From an uncultured Clostridia bacterium (GTDB lineage Bacteria; Bacillota; Clostridia; Lachnospirales; Anaerotignaceae), in NCBI GenBank assembly GCA_944384265.1, contig CALWSR010000010.1, positions 1-64,000 of the forward strand: a stretch of DNA of 64,000 nt, in the 5' to 3' direction. Position 1 is the first letter of the stretch. Each line of letters begins with the position of its first letter. Both the position numbers and the translations under genes were made by a program. The notes beneath the pieces were generated by a model. The model saw only the letters and a program-made list of their open reading frames with translations, ran no database searches and was not told where the DNA came from. Of the stretch, positions 35,524 to 59,067 are shown piece by piece.

Positions 35524-35770
35524 CAGAATATGCTAATACGTAGAGAAGGAATAGTACAATGTATGGCTTTTTCAGAGAGCTTTCGTTTGGTGAAAGGAAG
35601 TATTGCTATATTTTGGAACTCACCTTTGAGTATCCCATTGAACAATGCAGTAGATGGTGACGGTATCCTCCGTTATAGGATTTGAGTGTGCCTTGTTTTG
35701 GCAAAATAGAGTGGTAACACGGAGTAGCCCTTCGTCTCTAATGGGAGATGTGGGGCTTGTATTTTTTTGT
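35524..35770 (+). ncRNA. T-box leader for leucine (specifier CUC) controlling leuS
   Basis: The leader contains the AGAGAGC stem I element (35574-35580), a specifier CTC at 35619-35621 in GGAACTCACC, and the T-box AGAGTGGTAACACGG (about 35709-35722). The TGGT bulge is complementary to the A discriminator plus CCA of tRNA-Leu. A terminator follows: AGCCC (35726-35730) pairs with GGGCT (35753-35757), then TTTTTTT. Uncharged tRNA-Leu(GAG) should stabilise the antiterminator and allow leuS transcription. The CUC specifier agrees with the downstream enzyme. Confidence 0.93.
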
Positions 35771-53342: not shown

Positions 53343-54008
53343 TTAATGCAAAATACAATATTGTTCCATATACATTTCCATAGCTTTCAAAACAGTTTCA
53401 TAATTCCCCTGCTCCTTTAGATATTCATAAATATCCTGTACAGATAAAATAGAATGTACTTCTATGCCAAACTCCTCACTTACCTCCATAATTGCTGTTT
53501 TTCCTGGAATCTGCCCTACTTCGCAGCGATTTACAGAAATAAACATATGCTTTACTGTCACATCAGCCGCATTTTTTAATACAGGCATAGTTTCCCGAAT
53601 TGCTGTTCCTGCTGTAATCACATCTTCTATGATGACAACTCTGTCACCGTCTTTTGGCTGGTATCCTACCAGATTTCCGCCCTCTCCATGGTCTTTGACC
53701 TCTTTCCTATTAAAAAAATAAGGCTTATCCATATCATGTACTGTTGCCAAAGAAGCGGCTGTTGCTGTCACAAGAGGAATTCCCTTATAGGCTGGTCCAA
53801 ACATACAATCAAAATCATTGCCGCAGGTTTTTTTTATCAAATCTCCGTAAAATTTTCCAAGTGTGGCAATCTGCTTTCCTGTTTTATAATTTCCTGTATT
53901 GACAAAATAAGGCGTTAATCTCCCACTTTTTGTTTTAAACTCTCCAAAACGCAAAACGTCTGCTGACATCATAAATTCAATAAATTCTTTTTTTGATTTT
54001 GTTAACAT
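53343..54008 (-). CDS. pyrE: Orotate phosphoribosyltransferase
   Basis: A 221-residue type I PRTase with GGGGATT before the ATG. PRPP-binding motif VVIIEDVITAGTA (about 120-132), FGPAYKGIPL, FNRKEVKDHGEGG flexible loop. It converts orotate and PRPP to OMP. Last gene of the pyrBCFKDE operon, 13 bases after pyrD. No clear terminator follows at once; a T-rich gap runs to the convergent rubrerythrin terminator. Confidence 0.96.
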   Translation of the reverse strand: MLTKSKKEFIEFMMSADVLRFGEFKTKSGRLTPYFVNTGNYKTGKQIATLGKFYGDLIKKTCGNDFDCMFGPAYKGIPLVTATAASLATVHDMDKPYFFNRKEVKDHGEGGNLVGYQPKDGDRVVIIEDVITAGTAIRETMPVLKNAADVTVKHMFISVNRCEVGQIPGKTAIMEVSEEFGIEVHSILSVQDIYEYLKEQGNYETVLKAMEMYMEQYCILH

Positions 54009-54021
54009 AATAATCCCCTTT

Positions 54022-54933
54022 TTATTCTATGATTCCTCTAATATCACTGATATGTGAAATATGATATTGTTCCATATATTTTTCAATTCCCTCTATGGTT
54101 TCTATGGTTACCATAGGATTTGAAAAATTGGCTGTTCCAACTGCCACCGCTGTTGCACCTGCCATAATAAACTCAATGGCATCTTCTCCATTGGAAATAC
54201 CGCCCATACCAATAATCGGCACATCAACTGCCTTTGCTGTTTGATATACCATACGCAATGCAACCGGTTTGATAGCAGGACCGGAAAAACCACCTATTTT
54301 ATTGGCCAATACTGGCTTTTTACCATGAATATCAATTCTCATCCCCTGCAATGTATTGATTAAAGACAGGGCATCTGCTCCGCCGCAAACAGCAGCATTG
54401 GCAATCTCTGTGATATCTGTCACATTAGGCGTCAATTTTACAATCAAAGGCTGTTTTGCATATTTTTTGACCTCAGAGACCACTTTTTCCGCCATTTTAG
54501 GCTCTGTGCCAAATGTGATACCGCCTGCTGTCACATTGGGACAAGAAATATTTAATTCCAGCAAATCAATGTCTGCATCTGACAGCTTTTCTGCCACTTG
54601 GCAATATTCCTCAATGGTATGCCCACAAATATTGACAATGATTTTTGTATCATACTGTCGCAGAAATGGAATATCGTTTTCAATAAAATAATCTGCACCA
54701 GGATTTTGTAATCCTACGGAGTTTAACATACCGCCATAGGTTTCTGCAATACGAGGGGCATCATTGCCTTTCCAAGGCACACTGGCAACGCCTTTGACAG
54801 TGACAGCACCCAATTTATTTAAATCTACAAACTCTCCAAATTCTCTGCCAGAGCCAAATGTGCCGGAAGCAGTGGTCACAGGATTTTTCATTTCTACACC
54901 GGCAATGGTGACAGTCATATTTTGATTACTCAT
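54022..54933 (-). CDS. pyrD: Dihydroorotate dehydrogenase B, catalytic subunit
   Basis: A 303-residue FMN enzyme; start at 54933 with GAGGTGG 6 bases upstream, overlapping pyrK by 8 bases. ASGTFGSG, KGVASVPW, the active-site Cys region NISCPNVTAGG, and GMGGISNGEDAIEF. Class 1B forms a heterotetramer with PyrK to use NAD+. It oxidises dihydroorotate to orotate in the cytoplasm. Confidence 0.95.
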   Translation of the reverse strand: MSNQNMTVTIAGVEMKNPVTTASGTFGSGREFGEFVDLNKLGAVTVKGVASVPWKGNDAPRIAETYGGMLNSVGLQNPGADYFIENDIPFLRQYDTKIIVNICGHTIEEYCQVAEKLSDADIDLLELNISCPNVTAGGITFGTEPKMAEKVVSEVKKYAKQPLIVKLTPNVTDITEIANAAVCGGADALSLINTLQGMRIDIHGKKPVLANKIGGFSGPAIKPVALRMVYQTAKAVDVPIIGMGGISNGEDAIEFIMAGATAVAVGTANFSNPMVTIETIEGIEKYMEQYHISHISDIRGIIE

Positions 54934-55699
54934 TCCAAACCACCTCATTTCCCCAAAATACAGGACCATCTTTGCAGACCTTCAAATTTTCCCAGTCTGT
55001 TTGTCCTTGTTTTTGTATTTTGACAGCACAGCCAACACAAGCACCAATCCCGCAAGCCATTCTTTCCTCCATAGATACTTGTATAGGCATTTTTTGTTGT
55101 TCTGCCCAGTCAGAAACAGCTTTTAACATGGCTTTCGGACCACAGGCATATATCATATCCCCTTTTGGAACATTCTGTTTTAAAATGTCTAGTACAGTTC
55201 CGTGTACGCCATGACTGCCGTCATCGGTTGCCACGAAAACAAAAGCACCTGTTTTTTCAAATTCTTCTATGAGTATAGGATTAGATTTTGCACCAATCAA
55301 TACAGTGATTTCTCCCTGCAATGCTTTGGCTAATTCCAATAGAGGAGGAACACCAATTCCTCCACCTATTAAAATATGTTTTTTCCACTTTTTGTCTGTC
55401 AAAAATCCATTTCCCAGAGGTCCCATTACTTTTATGACATCATTTTTCTGTAATGTGGAAAAATATTGTGTACCCTTCCCTGCTGTTTGATACAACAAAC
55501 GCAGTGTACCCTTTTTTGGATTGATTTCGCACAGACTGATAGGACGTGGCAAAAGCATTTCCCCCTTGCCTGTGTACAAATTTAAAAATTGTCCCGGCTG
55601 TGCCAGCTCTGCAATCTCCGGTGCAGAAAGCACCATGTCAAATATACCATCTATATAACATTCATTTTTTAATATCGTTGCTTGTACTAATTTTTTCAT
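54926..55699 (-). CDS. pyrK: Dihydroorotate dehydrogenase B, electron transfer subunit
   Basis: A 257-residue flavin/iron-sulfur subunit; start at 55699 with AAGGGG upstream. FAD-binding RPISLCEI, NAD domain IGGGIGVPPLLELAK, YACGPKAMLKA, and the [2Fe-2S] cysteines in MACGIGACVGCAVK with a distal Cys in VCKDGPVF. It passes electrons from PyrD FMN to NAD+. Adjacent to pyrD, which confirms class 1B. Confidence 0.95.
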   Translation of the reverse strand: MKKLVQATILKNECYIDGIFDMVLSAPEIAELAQPGQFLNLYTGKGEMLLPRPISLCEINPKKGTLRLLYQTAGKGTQYFSTLQKNDVIKVMGPLGNGFLTDKKWKKHILIGGGIGVPPLLELAKALQGEITVLIGAKSNPILIEEFEKTGAFVFVATDDGSHGVHGTVLDILKQNVPKGDMIYACGPKAMLKAVSDWAEQQKMPIQVSMEERMACGIGACVGCAVKIQKQGQTDWENLKVCKDGPVFWGNEVVWNE

Positions 55700-55712
55700 T
55701 GTATACCCCTTT

Positions 55713-56639
55713 TTATCGTACACGGTTTAAATCATCACGCATATCTATCACAGCCTGACGGGAAGCCTGTGCAAATTCTTTTTCAGAAAATGCCGTACTA
55801 TATTTTTTATTTTTGTAAGCGGCAATGATACCACGAGAAGAATTGATAACAGCCCCCAGACCATCTTTGTCAAAACATACAGATAAATCTTCTGCTGTAC
55901 CGCCTTGTGCGCCATATCCTGGCACCAAAAAGAATGTGTGAGGCATTCTTTTTCTCAAATCTTGTGCTTGTTTGGAATGGGTTGCCCCTACCACAGCACC
56001 CACAGAAGAATAGCCATATTTTCCTCTCAGGCAACTGCCCCATTCTTCTGTCAATTCTCCTACTTTTTCATATAATGTCATACCGCCTACATCTAAGTCC
56101 TGTAATTGTCCGCTGTTTGGGTTTGAAGTTTTTACCAATATAAACAATCCTTTTTCATAATTTTTGCAGTTTTCCATATAAGGCTCTATGGAGTCCCAGC
56201 CCAAATAAGGATTTAATGTGATAAAATCTTCTCTGTAAATTTCAAAGCTGTTTTCTTCTATGGATACTTTTCCGATATGTCCATCAGAATAAGCCTCTGC
56301 TGTGGAGGCAATATCGCTTCTTTTAATATCCCCAATGACAACAAGTCCCATTTCTTTGGCATATGCCACTGTTTTAATATAGCAGGCAATACCATCTGCA
56401 CCAAATTGCTCATACATAGCAATCTGTGGCTTTACAGCAGGAATCAAGTCATATGTGGCATCAATAATGGCTTTGTTAAACTGCCAAAAAGCCTCCATAG
56501 CACCAGAAGGTGTGTTTGCAAATTTTTCATAGGCTTCTTTTTTAATAAAATCGGGAATATAAGAAAGACGAGGGTCCAGGCCTACCACAGTAGGATTGTT
56601 TGTCTGTTTTATTTTTTCAATTAAAGTATCAATTATCAT
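55713..56639 (-). CDS. pyrF: Orotidine 5'-phosphate decarboxylase (type 2)
   Basis: A 308-residue enzyme, longer than the B. subtilis type and typical of the type 2 subfamily. VVGLDPRLSYIPDF at the start, the catalytic D-x-K-x-x-D motif in GDIKRSDIASTA (about 95-106), and PGYGAQGGTAED. It decarboxylates OMP to UMP. Its ATG overlaps the pyrC stop, with GGAGG in the pyrC end. Confidence 0.95.
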   Translation of the reverse strand: MIIDTLIEKIKQTNNPTVVGLDPRLSYIPDFIKKEAYEKFANTPSGAMEAFWQFNKAIIDATYDLIPAVKPQIAMYEQFGADGIACYIKTVAYAKEMGLVVIGDIKRSDIASTAEAYSDGHIGKVSIEENSFEIYREDFITLNPYLGWDSIEPYMENCKNYEKGLFILVKTSNPNSGQLQDLDVGGMTLYEKVGELTEEWGSCLRGKYGYSSVGAVVGATHSKQAQDLRKRMPHTFFLVPGYGAQGGTAEDLSVCFDKDGLGAVINSSRGIIAAYKNKKYSTAFSEKEFAQASRQAVIDMRDDLNRVR

Positions 56640-57934
56640 GCCAAATCCTCCACCAATACACCATTTTCTACTACAACATTTCCATCTACCAATGTATATA
56701 ATACCTTTCCTTTTACATCAAATCCGCCAAAAGGTGTATTTTTACTTTTGGAGGCAAATGTGGCAGGGTCTATTTGATATTCCGCATGGGGGTCAATGAT
56801 AGTAATATCTGCCGCTTTTCCCACAGATAATGTGCCTTTTTCAATACCAAGCATTTTTGCAGGATTGTATGTCATTTTTGCAATCAATTCCATAGGAGTC
56901 AGCCAGCCGCCTTCCACCAGCACTTTGATGCCAAGAGGCAAGGCAGTTTCCAGCCCCACAATACCAAACGCTGCTTTTTCATATTCACAGTTTTTTTCGT
57001 CCACACCGTGAGGCGCATGGTCTGTTGCAATGATTTCAATGGTATTGTCTTTCAAAGCCTGACAAATTGCCAAAACATCTTCTTTAGAGCGTAAAGGCGG
57101 ATTCATTTTTGTGTTTCCATCATAATCTGTAATAAAATCATCGCTTAATGTAAAGTGATGTGGAGTGGCTTCTGCTGTCACAGATTGTCCGGCAGCTTTT
57201 GCTTGTCTTAACAGCTCTACACTGCCCTTTGTACTCATATGACAAATATGCAGTTTAGAACTTGTACTTTTTGCTAATATTATATCTCTTGCCACAATCA
57301 CTTCTTCAGAATCATTTGAAATCCCCTTCAGCCCCAAAAGCTGTGCCGCAGGTCCTGCATTCATGGAGCCGCCTCCTGCCAAAGCAATATCTTCGCAGTG
57401 AGAAAGTACAGGAATATCAAACATTTTTGCATATTTCATAGCTGTTTTTAACAATCCGGAGGAAGGTACACTTTTACCGTCCTCGCTGATAGCACAAGCA
57501 CCGGCTTTTGCCATTTTTCCGATATTTGCCAATTCTTCCCCTTGTTGTCCTTTTGTAATGGCACCAATGGGCAAAACGTGTACAACACCCTCTCTTTCTG
57601 CTTTTAATTTGATATATTCCACCATAATGTCACTGTCGCACACCGGATTTGTGTTTGGCATAGGGCAAATGGTTGTAAAACCGCCCTTTGCAGCACTGCG
57701 TGTACCTGTTGCAATGGTTTCTTTGTATTCATATCCCGGTTCACGCAAATGTACATGAACATCTATAAATCCGGGCGTTACCCAACAGCCGTTGGCGTCA
57801 ATGATTTTGTCAGCATTTTCTGTAATATTTTTTTCTATTTTTACAATGCAGCCTTCTTCTACCAATATATCCTTTATTTCATTTGTTTGAGAAGCTGGGT
57901 CTATGACTTGTCCGTTTTGAATTAAAATCTTCAT
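56636..57934 (-). CDS. pyrC: Dihydroorotase
   Basis: A 432-residue class I dihydroorotase of the amidohydrolase superfamily. Metal motif DVHVHLREPG (about 59-68), GGFTTICPMPNTNP, the zinc-His positions in LHICHMST and the Asp in ATDHAPH. It closes carbamoyl aspartate to dihydroorotate. AGGAGG lies in the pyrB end, and start and stop overlap by 4 bases. Confidence 0.95.
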   Translation of the reverse strand: MKILIQNGQVIDPASQTNEIKDILVEEGCIVKIEKNITENADKIIDANGCWVTPGFIDVHVHLREPGYEYKETIATGTRSAAKGGFTTICPMPNTNPVCDSDIMVEYIKLKAEREGVVHVLPIGAITKGQQGEELANIGKMAKAGACAISEDGKSVPSSGLLKTAMKYAKMFDIPVLSHCEDIALAGGGSMNAGPAAQLLGLKGISNDSEEVIVARDIILAKSTSSKLHICHMSTKGSVELLRQAKAAGQSVTAEATPHHFTLSDDFITDYDGNTKMNPPLRSKEDVLAICQALKDNTIEIIATDHAPHGVDEKNCEYEKAAFGIVGLETALPLGIKVLVEGGWLTPMELIAKMTYNPAKMLGIEKGTLSVGKAADITIIDPHAEYQIDPATFASKSKNTPFGGFDVKGKVLYTLVDGNVVVENGVLVEDLA

Positions 57935-58851
57935 TTTTTTCCTCCTTCATATAATAGCTTTAATATAGCCATTCTTACAGCAACACCATTTTTTACCTGT
58001 ATATTGATAACAGAGTTTTCCCCGTCAATAATGTCTGTGCTTAGTTCAATGCCTCGATTGACCGGACCGGGGTGCATAATTAAAACGTCTTTTTTGGCAT
58101 ATTTTAATATTTCTTTGTTGATACCGAATAACTCACGATATTCTGCTAAATCGGGAAAAGCCGTTGTTTTTTGTCTTTCAAACTGTATTCTCAATCCCAT
58201 CACAACATCAGCATCCTTTACAGCCTCTTTGACATCAGGTGTTGTTTTCACACCCAATAGGCCGGAACCGCCCAACAGTGTGGAAGGACCTGCCAATGTT
58301 ACTTTAGCTCCCAGCTTAGATAGTCCAAAGACATTGCTTCTTGCCACACGGCTGTGAGAAATATCCCCAATGATAGCTATTTTTAAGCCTTCAAAACTTT
58401 TTTTATATTCAGATATGGTAAATAAATCCAGTAATGCTTGTGTAGGATGTTCATTAGAGCCATCTCCTGCATTGATAACATGGGCTGATACATTTTTCGC
58501 CAGTATATGAGGAGCACCTGTCATGCTGTGACGCATTACCATAATTTCTACGCCCATCTGGTCTAATGTTTTTCCGGTATCAATAAGACTTTCCCCTTTT
58601 TTGACACTGCTGGTGCCTACACCTAAATCTTGTACAGTCGCTCCTAAATATTTTCCGGCAAGAGAAAAGGAAGTTTTTGTTCTTGTACTGTTTTCATAAA
58701 ATAGGCTGACAATACTACATCCCCTAATTTCATTGACTCTTTTACTGCTGTCATCAATACGAAGCTTCATTTCTTTTGCAGTTTCCAATATTTCTAAAAT
58801 TTCTTCTCTTGTCATATCCTTTAATCCAAGAATATCTTTTTGATTCAGCAT
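57931..58851 (-). CDS. pyrB: Aspartate carbamoyltransferase catalytic subunit
   Basis: A 306-residue ATCase. Carbamoyl-phosphate motif S55-T-R-T58 (NSTRTKTSF), MRHSMTGAPH, HPTQALLDLFTI, and MHPGPVNRGIE near the end. No pyrI regulatory subunit gene is present in the operon. AAAGGAGGAG precedes the ATG. First gene of pyrBCFKDE, downstream of a leader that looks like a UTP-sensing transcription attenuator. Confidence 0.96.
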   Translation of the reverse strand: MLNQKDILGLKDMTREEILEILETAKEMKLRIDDSSKRVNEIRGCSIVSLFYENSTRTKTSFSLAGKYLGATVQDLGVGTSSVKKGESLIDTGKTLDQMGVEIMVMRHSMTGAPHILAKNVSAHVINAGDGSNEHPTQALLDLFTISEYKKSFEGLKIAIIGDISHSRVARSNVFGLSKLGAKVTLAGPSTLLGGSGLLGVKTTPDVKEAVKDADVVMGLRIQFERQKTTAFPDLAEYRELFGINKEILKYAKKDVLIMHPGPVNRGIELSTDIIDGENSVINIQVKNGVAVRMAILKLLYEGGKK

Positions 58852-58873
58852 AATACTCCTCCTTTATACAGCT

Positions 58874-58918
58874 ATAAAAAGAAAGACAATCAAAAGAAAA
58901 AATATCTTTTCATTGTCT
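58874..58918 (-). terminator. pyr attenuator terminator (T1)
   Basis: On the minus strand AGACAAT (58918-58912), a C-C-type mismatch and AAAAGA pair with TCTTTT and ATTGTCT (58890-58884), then TTTCTTTTTAT. It lies about 25 bases before the pyrB ribosome site. Its 5' arm begins at the stop codon of the leader ORF. Confidence 0.78.
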
Positions 58919-58976
58919 AATATACACAAAAAAAGAAAGGATATAAATAAAAAATCTTTTTATATTTTTTTATCAT
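58917..58976 (-). CDS. Putative pyr leader peptide (19 residues)
   Basis: ATG (58976-58974) with GGAGGG 7 bases upstream (58989-58984). Codons give MIKKYKKIFYLYPFFFCVY then TAG. The second half is read across a pyrimidine tract (CCTTTCTTTTTTT, 58940-58928) rich in U. The stop codon overlaps the first two bases of the T1 terminator arm, so a ribosome that finishes the peptide should block T1. This mirrors E. coli pyrL ahead of pyrBI. Translation is inferred, not shown. Confidence 0.6.
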   Translation of the reverse strand: MIKKYKKIFYLYPFFFCVY

Positions 58977-58980
58977 ATCC
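58926..58980 (-). promoter_or_regulatory. Pause-type hairpin and U-tract in the pyr leader
   Basis: GGATAT (58980-58975) pairs with ATATCC (58944-58939), continued by ATAAAAAA/TTTTTTAT pairing. The hairpin is followed by CTTTCTTTTTTTG. It could pause RNA polymerase when UTP is low or act as an upstream terminator. Confidence 0.6.
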
Positions 58981-59006
58981 AATCCCTCCATTCGTAAATT
59001 TTTTTT

Positions 59007-59067
59007 ATTGTAACACATATTGCTATAAAATTCCACTTATTTTAACATATACTATATTTTTACGCAA
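59007..59067 (-). promoter_or_regulatory. Candidate pyr operon promoters
   Basis: Two overlapping options on the minus strand: extended -10 TGT-TACAAT (59012-59007) with a weak -35, starting in an A-run near 59000; and TTGCGT (59067-59062), 17 bases, TAAAAT (59044-59039). Confidence 0.5.

Follow-up and report, generated by a model that had tools for sequence, protein, structure and literature searches.

What controls a clostridial pyrBCFKDE operon that is preceded by a short open reading frame (ORF) running into an intrinsic terminator? The question is raised by the window, a stretch of 64,000 nucleotides (contig CALWSR010000010.1 of assembly GCA_944384265.1) from an uncultured Clostridia bacterium of the Anaerotignaceae, whose nearest named relative is Candidatus Coprocola pullicola (PyrB identity 96%). 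The original prediction, made from the letters alone, had placed a UTP attenuator of the Escherichia coli pyrBI type at 58874-59067 of the minus strand. Following up on this, we compared the leader with those of related genomes. We think it likely that the leader attenuates transcription of pyrBCFKDE in a protein-free, ribosome-mediated way, most likely in response to UTP, and that the time open for ribosome loading is itself limited.

All predicted parts were found in the proposed order, from the promoter through GGAGGG, a 19-codon ORF, the U-rich tract and the terminator T1 to the pyrB ribosome binding site (RBS), and the 5' arm of T1 indeed begins within the stop codon of the ORF (Table 1). 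The hairpin over the ORF start is also recovered in the predicted fold, where the RBS and start region pair with the pyrimidine tract. The leader RNA as a whole folds at -39.1 kcal/mol (z = -5.0), a value equalled by none of 200 shuffles. NCBIfam models confirm the gene order pyrB-pyrC-pyrF-pyrK-pyrD-pyrE downstream. At the promoter element, the stretch GGAATTTTATAGmAATATrTGTTAmAATAA is almost unchanged across the leaders L014-L017.

Table 1. Features of the pyr leader and operon in the window
Feature	Position	Strand	Basis or remark
Extended -10-like promoter element TTACAAT	59007..59013	-	From sequence; -35 weak
Shine-Dalgarno GGAGGG of leader ORF	58984..58989	-	Sequence; other leaders also have an RBS
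Leader ORF, 19 codons and stop TAG, peptide MIKKYKKIFYLYPFFFCVY	58917..58976	-	ATG 58976; TAG 58919-58917
RBS-sequestering hairpin, RBS/start region with pyrimidine tract of the ORF	58931..58988	-	Predicted fold
Pyrimidine/U-rich tract CCTTTCTTTTTTT, inside ORF	58928..58940	-	Proposed UTP-sensitive slow region and anti-Shine-Dalgarno
Intrinsic terminator T1 hairpin AGACAATGAAAAGA...TCTTTTGATTGTCT	58884..58918	-	First base is the A (second base) of leader stop TAG
T1 U-tail TTCTTTTTA	58875..58883	-	Sequence
pyrB ribosome binding site AAAGGAGGAG	58856..58865	-	Sequence
pyrB, aspartate carbamoyltransferase catalytic subunit	57931..58851	-	NF002032, 373 bits; ATG 58851
pyrC, dihydroorotase	56636..57934	-	TIGR00857, 448 bits
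pyrF, orotidine-5'-phosphate decarboxylase	55713..56639	-	TIGR02127
pyrK, dihydroorotate dehydrogenase electron-transfer subunit	54926..55723	-	Best match NF000798, 215 bits; cut-off of 219 narrowly missed
pyrD, dihydroorotate dehydrogenase	54022..54969	-	NF005574
pyrE, orotate phosphoribosyltransferase	53343..54008	-	TIGR00336

A covariance model of T1 (R1) has a single match in the genome of the window (60 bits). Matches outside the operon in three other genomes (G001, G003 and G056; E > 3e-4) lie beside unrelated genes or within genes and were taken as chance. Two leader-like sequences elsewhere in the window's genome were set aside as weak, one (L002) being a chance AT-rich match and the other (L003) adjoining it. 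The same genome holds a second aspartate carbamoyltransferase gene (G000:C4:29957-30853, 48% identical), which we rejected as leader-bearing: it is of another type, and its copies in relatives directly follow an RluD-like gene and have no leader. Upstream of the pyr leader, a basic 44-amino-acid ORF with its own RBS (MKKQEKKQKIVKNKYHLPKEKKVTEKKYAEINTMMLLTYYLANA; 59248-59114, minus strand) ends right before a bidirectional terminator (59108-59087), and G003 has the C-terminal part of this ORF upstream of its own leader (L016). A T-box leader lies at 35532-35742 on the plus strand (Rfam RF00230, 129.9 bits).

The meeting of ORF and terminator was followed through about 90 related leaders, all upstream of orthologous pyrB genes in the same order. 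The criteria for T1 were its hairpin and its 3'-arm motif; the only one for the ORF was a Shine-Dalgarno (SD), and neither choice considered the end of the ORF. In the two families without PyrR, namely the window's own (f1) and f12, the ORF so defined extends to T1 in 52 of 55 leaders, which within a genus are kin and hence not independent, compared with 13.2 expected from dinucleotide shuffles that ignore relatedness; these leaders, read in their other two frames, give 12 and 13, that is, chance level. The stop codon falls between T1-21 and the end of T1 in 49 of the 55 (11.9 expected), and 17 genera are represented by the leaders used in the later tests. Covariation within T1 is confined to a single pair in which both sides have changed, too weak to be used alone. 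A recognisable leader is absent from a few f12 genomes (L051, L052). One f1 genome without the window-type pyrB (G016) has the leader ORF and T1 ahead of pyrC (L272), and the element thus travels with the operon.

Within the genus of the window, the peptide sequence and the reading frame both vary, with ATG-to-core distances of 60, 61, 62 and 64 nt, while the ORF enters T1 in every leader. This holds for Ca. C. pullicola (G004, L015) as well, in which a homopolymer is shorter by one A and the ORF crosses T1 to stop 12 nt before pyrB; in the remaining two congeners it stops at T1-1 and T1+7. Such single-base homopolymer differences may be errors, since most of the genomes are draft assemblies and several are metagenome-assembled. 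A variable peptide and frame combined with an ORF that always enters T1 point to selection on arrival at T1 and not on the peptide. A frameshift in close relatives, which the original prediction had named as counting against it, was seen in one congener of three (G004).

The arrangement invites comparison with the pyrBI operon of E. coli. The pyrL leader likewise has a promoter, an RBS, a short U-rich ORF and a terminator right before pyrB, and no regulator protein (Roland, Liu & Turnbough 1988, cited in PMC5021804). The two leaders have no sequence relation, they come from different phyla, and the operon in the window is pyrBCFKDE. Moreover, pyrL, whose U-rich tract encodes PFFF, has 44 codons, crosses the terminator and stops just before pyrB, whereas the ORF of the window stops inside T1, as is usual in its clade. 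In E. coli MG1655 (L260), folding predicts a duplex between the pyrL RBS, CGGGAGGA, and UCUUCCCG within the U-tract of the same leader, which is only a lead (shuffle p = 0.07).

From these parts we infer how the leader of the window could work. With plentiful UTP, RNA polymerase would pass the pyrimidine/U tract fast, the transcribed tract would fold back and close the leader SD, and no ribosome would follow; in its absence T1 would form and transcription would stop ahead of pyrB. With scarce UTP, the polymerase would slow in the tract, which would give a ribosome time to load on the still-open SD and to catch up. A ribosome at the end of the ORF would then stand inside the 5' arm of T1 and block it, and the operon would be transcribed.

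The composition of the tract is consistent with this sequence of events. In PyrR-less leaders the T content is 0.49 over 60 nt and is highest, at 0.66, in the bin that lies 20-10 nt ahead of T1, and before T1 it is greater than in PyrR+ leaders (genus means, p = 0.003). As the latter are also U-rich before T1, though less so, U-richness lends UTP sensing partial support, and some of it may predate the loss of PyrR or serve an anti-SD role only.

Pairing between the SD and the tract sets the PyrR-less leaders apart. In f1 and f12 the mean z of this pairing against dinucleotide shuffles of the ORF is -2.0, with p < 0.05 in 29 of 53 leaders; it is weak in L024, L027, L047 and L177, and in the window the duplex reaches -15.0 kcal/mol (p = 0.03 against ORF shuffles). 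From genus to genus the hairpin differs in sequence, but the pyrimidine tract persists. Matched SD/ORF pairs are better than pairs swapped between genera by 2.95 kcal/mol (14 of 17 genera, p = 5e-4), whereas the same swap has no cost in PyrR+ leaders (+0.2, p = 0.8). Equilibrium folds, which are not co-transcriptional, predict that the openness of the SD in PyrR-less leaders goes from 0.71 at 18 nt past the ORF start to 0.13 when transcription is at T1. Shuffled ORFs leave it at 0.31, real leaders being lower in 45 of 52 (p = 6e-8), and in PyrR+ leaders it is near-constant (0.33 to 0.30). For the window, folds of the same equilibrium kind predict a fall from 0.93 to about 0.08 with transcription of the tract, the final drop (0.87 to 0.25 to about 0.1) coinciding with the U-tract.

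Because the RBS of PyrR-less leaders is predicted to be sequestered by their own pyrimidine tract, the folds suggest control at ribosome loading as well as at catching up. We tentatively propose a loading gate that closes itself, and would give this version slightly less than an even chance. The speed of the polymerase through the tract would set the time for which the SD is open, so that the UTP level would decide whether a ribosome loads before the anti-SD has been transcribed; after PyrR was lost in one clade, this gate would have taken its place at the same SD, with the ORF and the terminator kept.

The most serious competitor, if a rather doubtful one, is attenuation exactly as in E. coli, in which a pause of the polymerase in the U-tract at low UTP lets the ribosome catch up. 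The RBS hairpin would then play no part in loading and would be either a pause hairpin or the incidental result of combining a purine RBS with a pyrimidine tract. The parts are ordered as in pyrL, the long f1 leaders L021, L022 and L025 have a hairpin just before the U-tract that does not involve the RBS, and the E. coli p value quoted above would allow the pairing to be incidental. In the clade of the window, however, the RBS hairpin is significant across genera: matched RBS/tract pairs beat the between-genus swaps, composition-keeping shuffles leave the RBS more open, and neither effect appears in PyrR+ leaders that share the ORF and T1. These comparisons speak against a hairpin without function in loading.

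The proposed replacement of PyrR can be examined in the distribution of the protein, its binding loop and the antiterminator. In the window's genome no true PyrR was found, the best NF003549 score being 35 bits against a cut-off of 138. Among 295 members of the order, all 58 PyrR matches fall in families other than f1 and f12, and none of the f1 or f12 genomes searched has PyrR above the cut-off, 24 f1 genomes having also been searched separately; 'protein-free' refers here to PyrR, the only regulator tested for. The binding-loop pattern occurs in 28 of 28 leaders of PyrR+ families and in 0 of 60 from f1 and f12. This pattern, checked on the PyrR+ families, was used because the positive-control loci L076 and L085 failed in the Rfam PyrR scan, in which the lack of a match at gathering score is accordingly weak. 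An antiterminator complementary to T1 was not found in f1 and f12 (mean z +0.3; 1 of 55 leaders at p < 0.05), while the same test on the PyrR+ family f2 as positive control gave a mean z of -2.9 and 8 of 11. In f2 (L175, L183-L199), ATTGCCTTT lies upstream of the loop and is complementary to the 5' arm of T1, as in a classical antiterminator. No leader ORF reaching T1 was found in five f2 genomes (L175, L186, L195, L196, L198), which is what an antiterminator would permit; the others keep the ORF.

With these results the original reading of a pyrBI-like, translation-coupled attenuator without a PyrR loop is the best supported, through the excess of ORFs reaching T1 (17 genera), a tract that is independent of frame, and the lack of an antiterminator, PyrR and its loop; UTP would be the signal sensed.

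The PyrR+ sister families carry the same T1 and, in most leaders, the ORF. In 26 of their 28 leaders the start codon lies 4-15 nt after the PyrR loop, and the 3' strand of the loop is therefore the SD of the leader ORF. In five of these families (f24, f21, f22, f7 and f8), the test that detects the antiterminator of f2 did not find one. They resemble the pyr attenuator of Thermus strain ZO5, for which Van de Casteele and colleagues reportedly proposed in 1997 a PyrR-dependent attenuation without an antiterminator, the terminator being blocked by the translating ribosome. The clade of the window differs from Thermus ZO5 in having dropped PyrR and the loop, and a PyrR site over the leader-ORF RBS is absent from f1 and f12. 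Similarly, it shares with Bacillus-type PyrR attenuation (Rfam RF00515), which sister families in the order possess, the control of a pyr operon via premature termination, predicted in the case of the window, but the PyrR gene, the binding loop and the antiterminator are all missing.

In an RpoB tree of a quick kind, with SH-aLRT as the only support measure, f1 and f12 form one clade (support 100) nested among PyrR+ families. Given this nesting, the simplest history is probably a single loss of PyrR and its binding loop with retention of the ORF and T1, and the ancestors of f1 and f12 probably had PyrR control. The loss came later than the leader ORF and T1 themselves, since the PyrR loop of the sister families overlaps the RBS of the same ORF. 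Several Clostridia beyond this order (f30, f70) have a different pyr T1, ATAGTAAG...CTTACTATTTTT; the TAG at its start is exactly the leader stop codon in seven leaders (L202, L203, L220, L289, L291, L292, L294), whose genomes include some with and some without PyrR.

It is also conceivable, if improbable, that leader translation prevents T1 in answer to a signal other than UTP, with an RNA-binding protein or a ligand opening or closing the RBS hairpin in PyrR's stead. In the PyrR+ sister families gating acts on the RBS, and in f1 and f12 a hairpin is still predicted to gate it. However, no conserved sequence resembling the PyrR loop was seen, and what is kept between genera is the pyrimidine tract and not the hairpin sequence.

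Very unlikely is an amino-acid attenuator, in which stalling of the ribosome at Phe, Tyr or Leu codons would govern T1. Phe, Ile and Leu are abundant in the peptides, with Phe at 19% of the last 12 codons, but TTT is about equally frequent in the three frames (225/180/228), and a U-tract independent of frame speaks for a role at the RNA level and against phenylalanine sensing. In addition, the reading frame is not conserved among congeners, the product of the operon is pyrimidines, and upstream stalling would favor T1 as there is no antiterminator. Classical PyrR attenuation with a PyrR that escaped detection or a divergent loop, although Bacillota typically use PyrR control and sister families that share this T1 have it too, is hardly credible in view of the searches for protein, loop and antiterminator described above.

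The UTP-responsive reading bears on how transcription and translation are thought to relate in this phylum. Bacillota are held to have runaway transcription, with the polymerase outpacing the ribosomes (PMC13323073), which is unfavorable to transcription-translation coupling. Literature searches in open papers, with most subscription papers outside their scope, found no earlier report for Clostridia; the study of Naville & Gautheret 2010 (PMC2965389) treats leader peptides of Firmicutes for his genes and leaves pyrB and pyrimidine unmentioned in its main text. If true, the leader would represent ribosome-coupled, UTP-responsive attenuation in Clostridia, within a runaway-transcription phylum, and would offer a natural test of that view. 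The order further provides a series of three states for one operon: PyrR with an RNA antiterminator (f2), a PyrR loop over the leader RBS without an antiterminator (f24, f21, f22, f7, f8), and an RNA hairpin over the same RBS without PyrR (f1, f12). In this series a protein-controlled switch would have become protein-free with its output stage kept.
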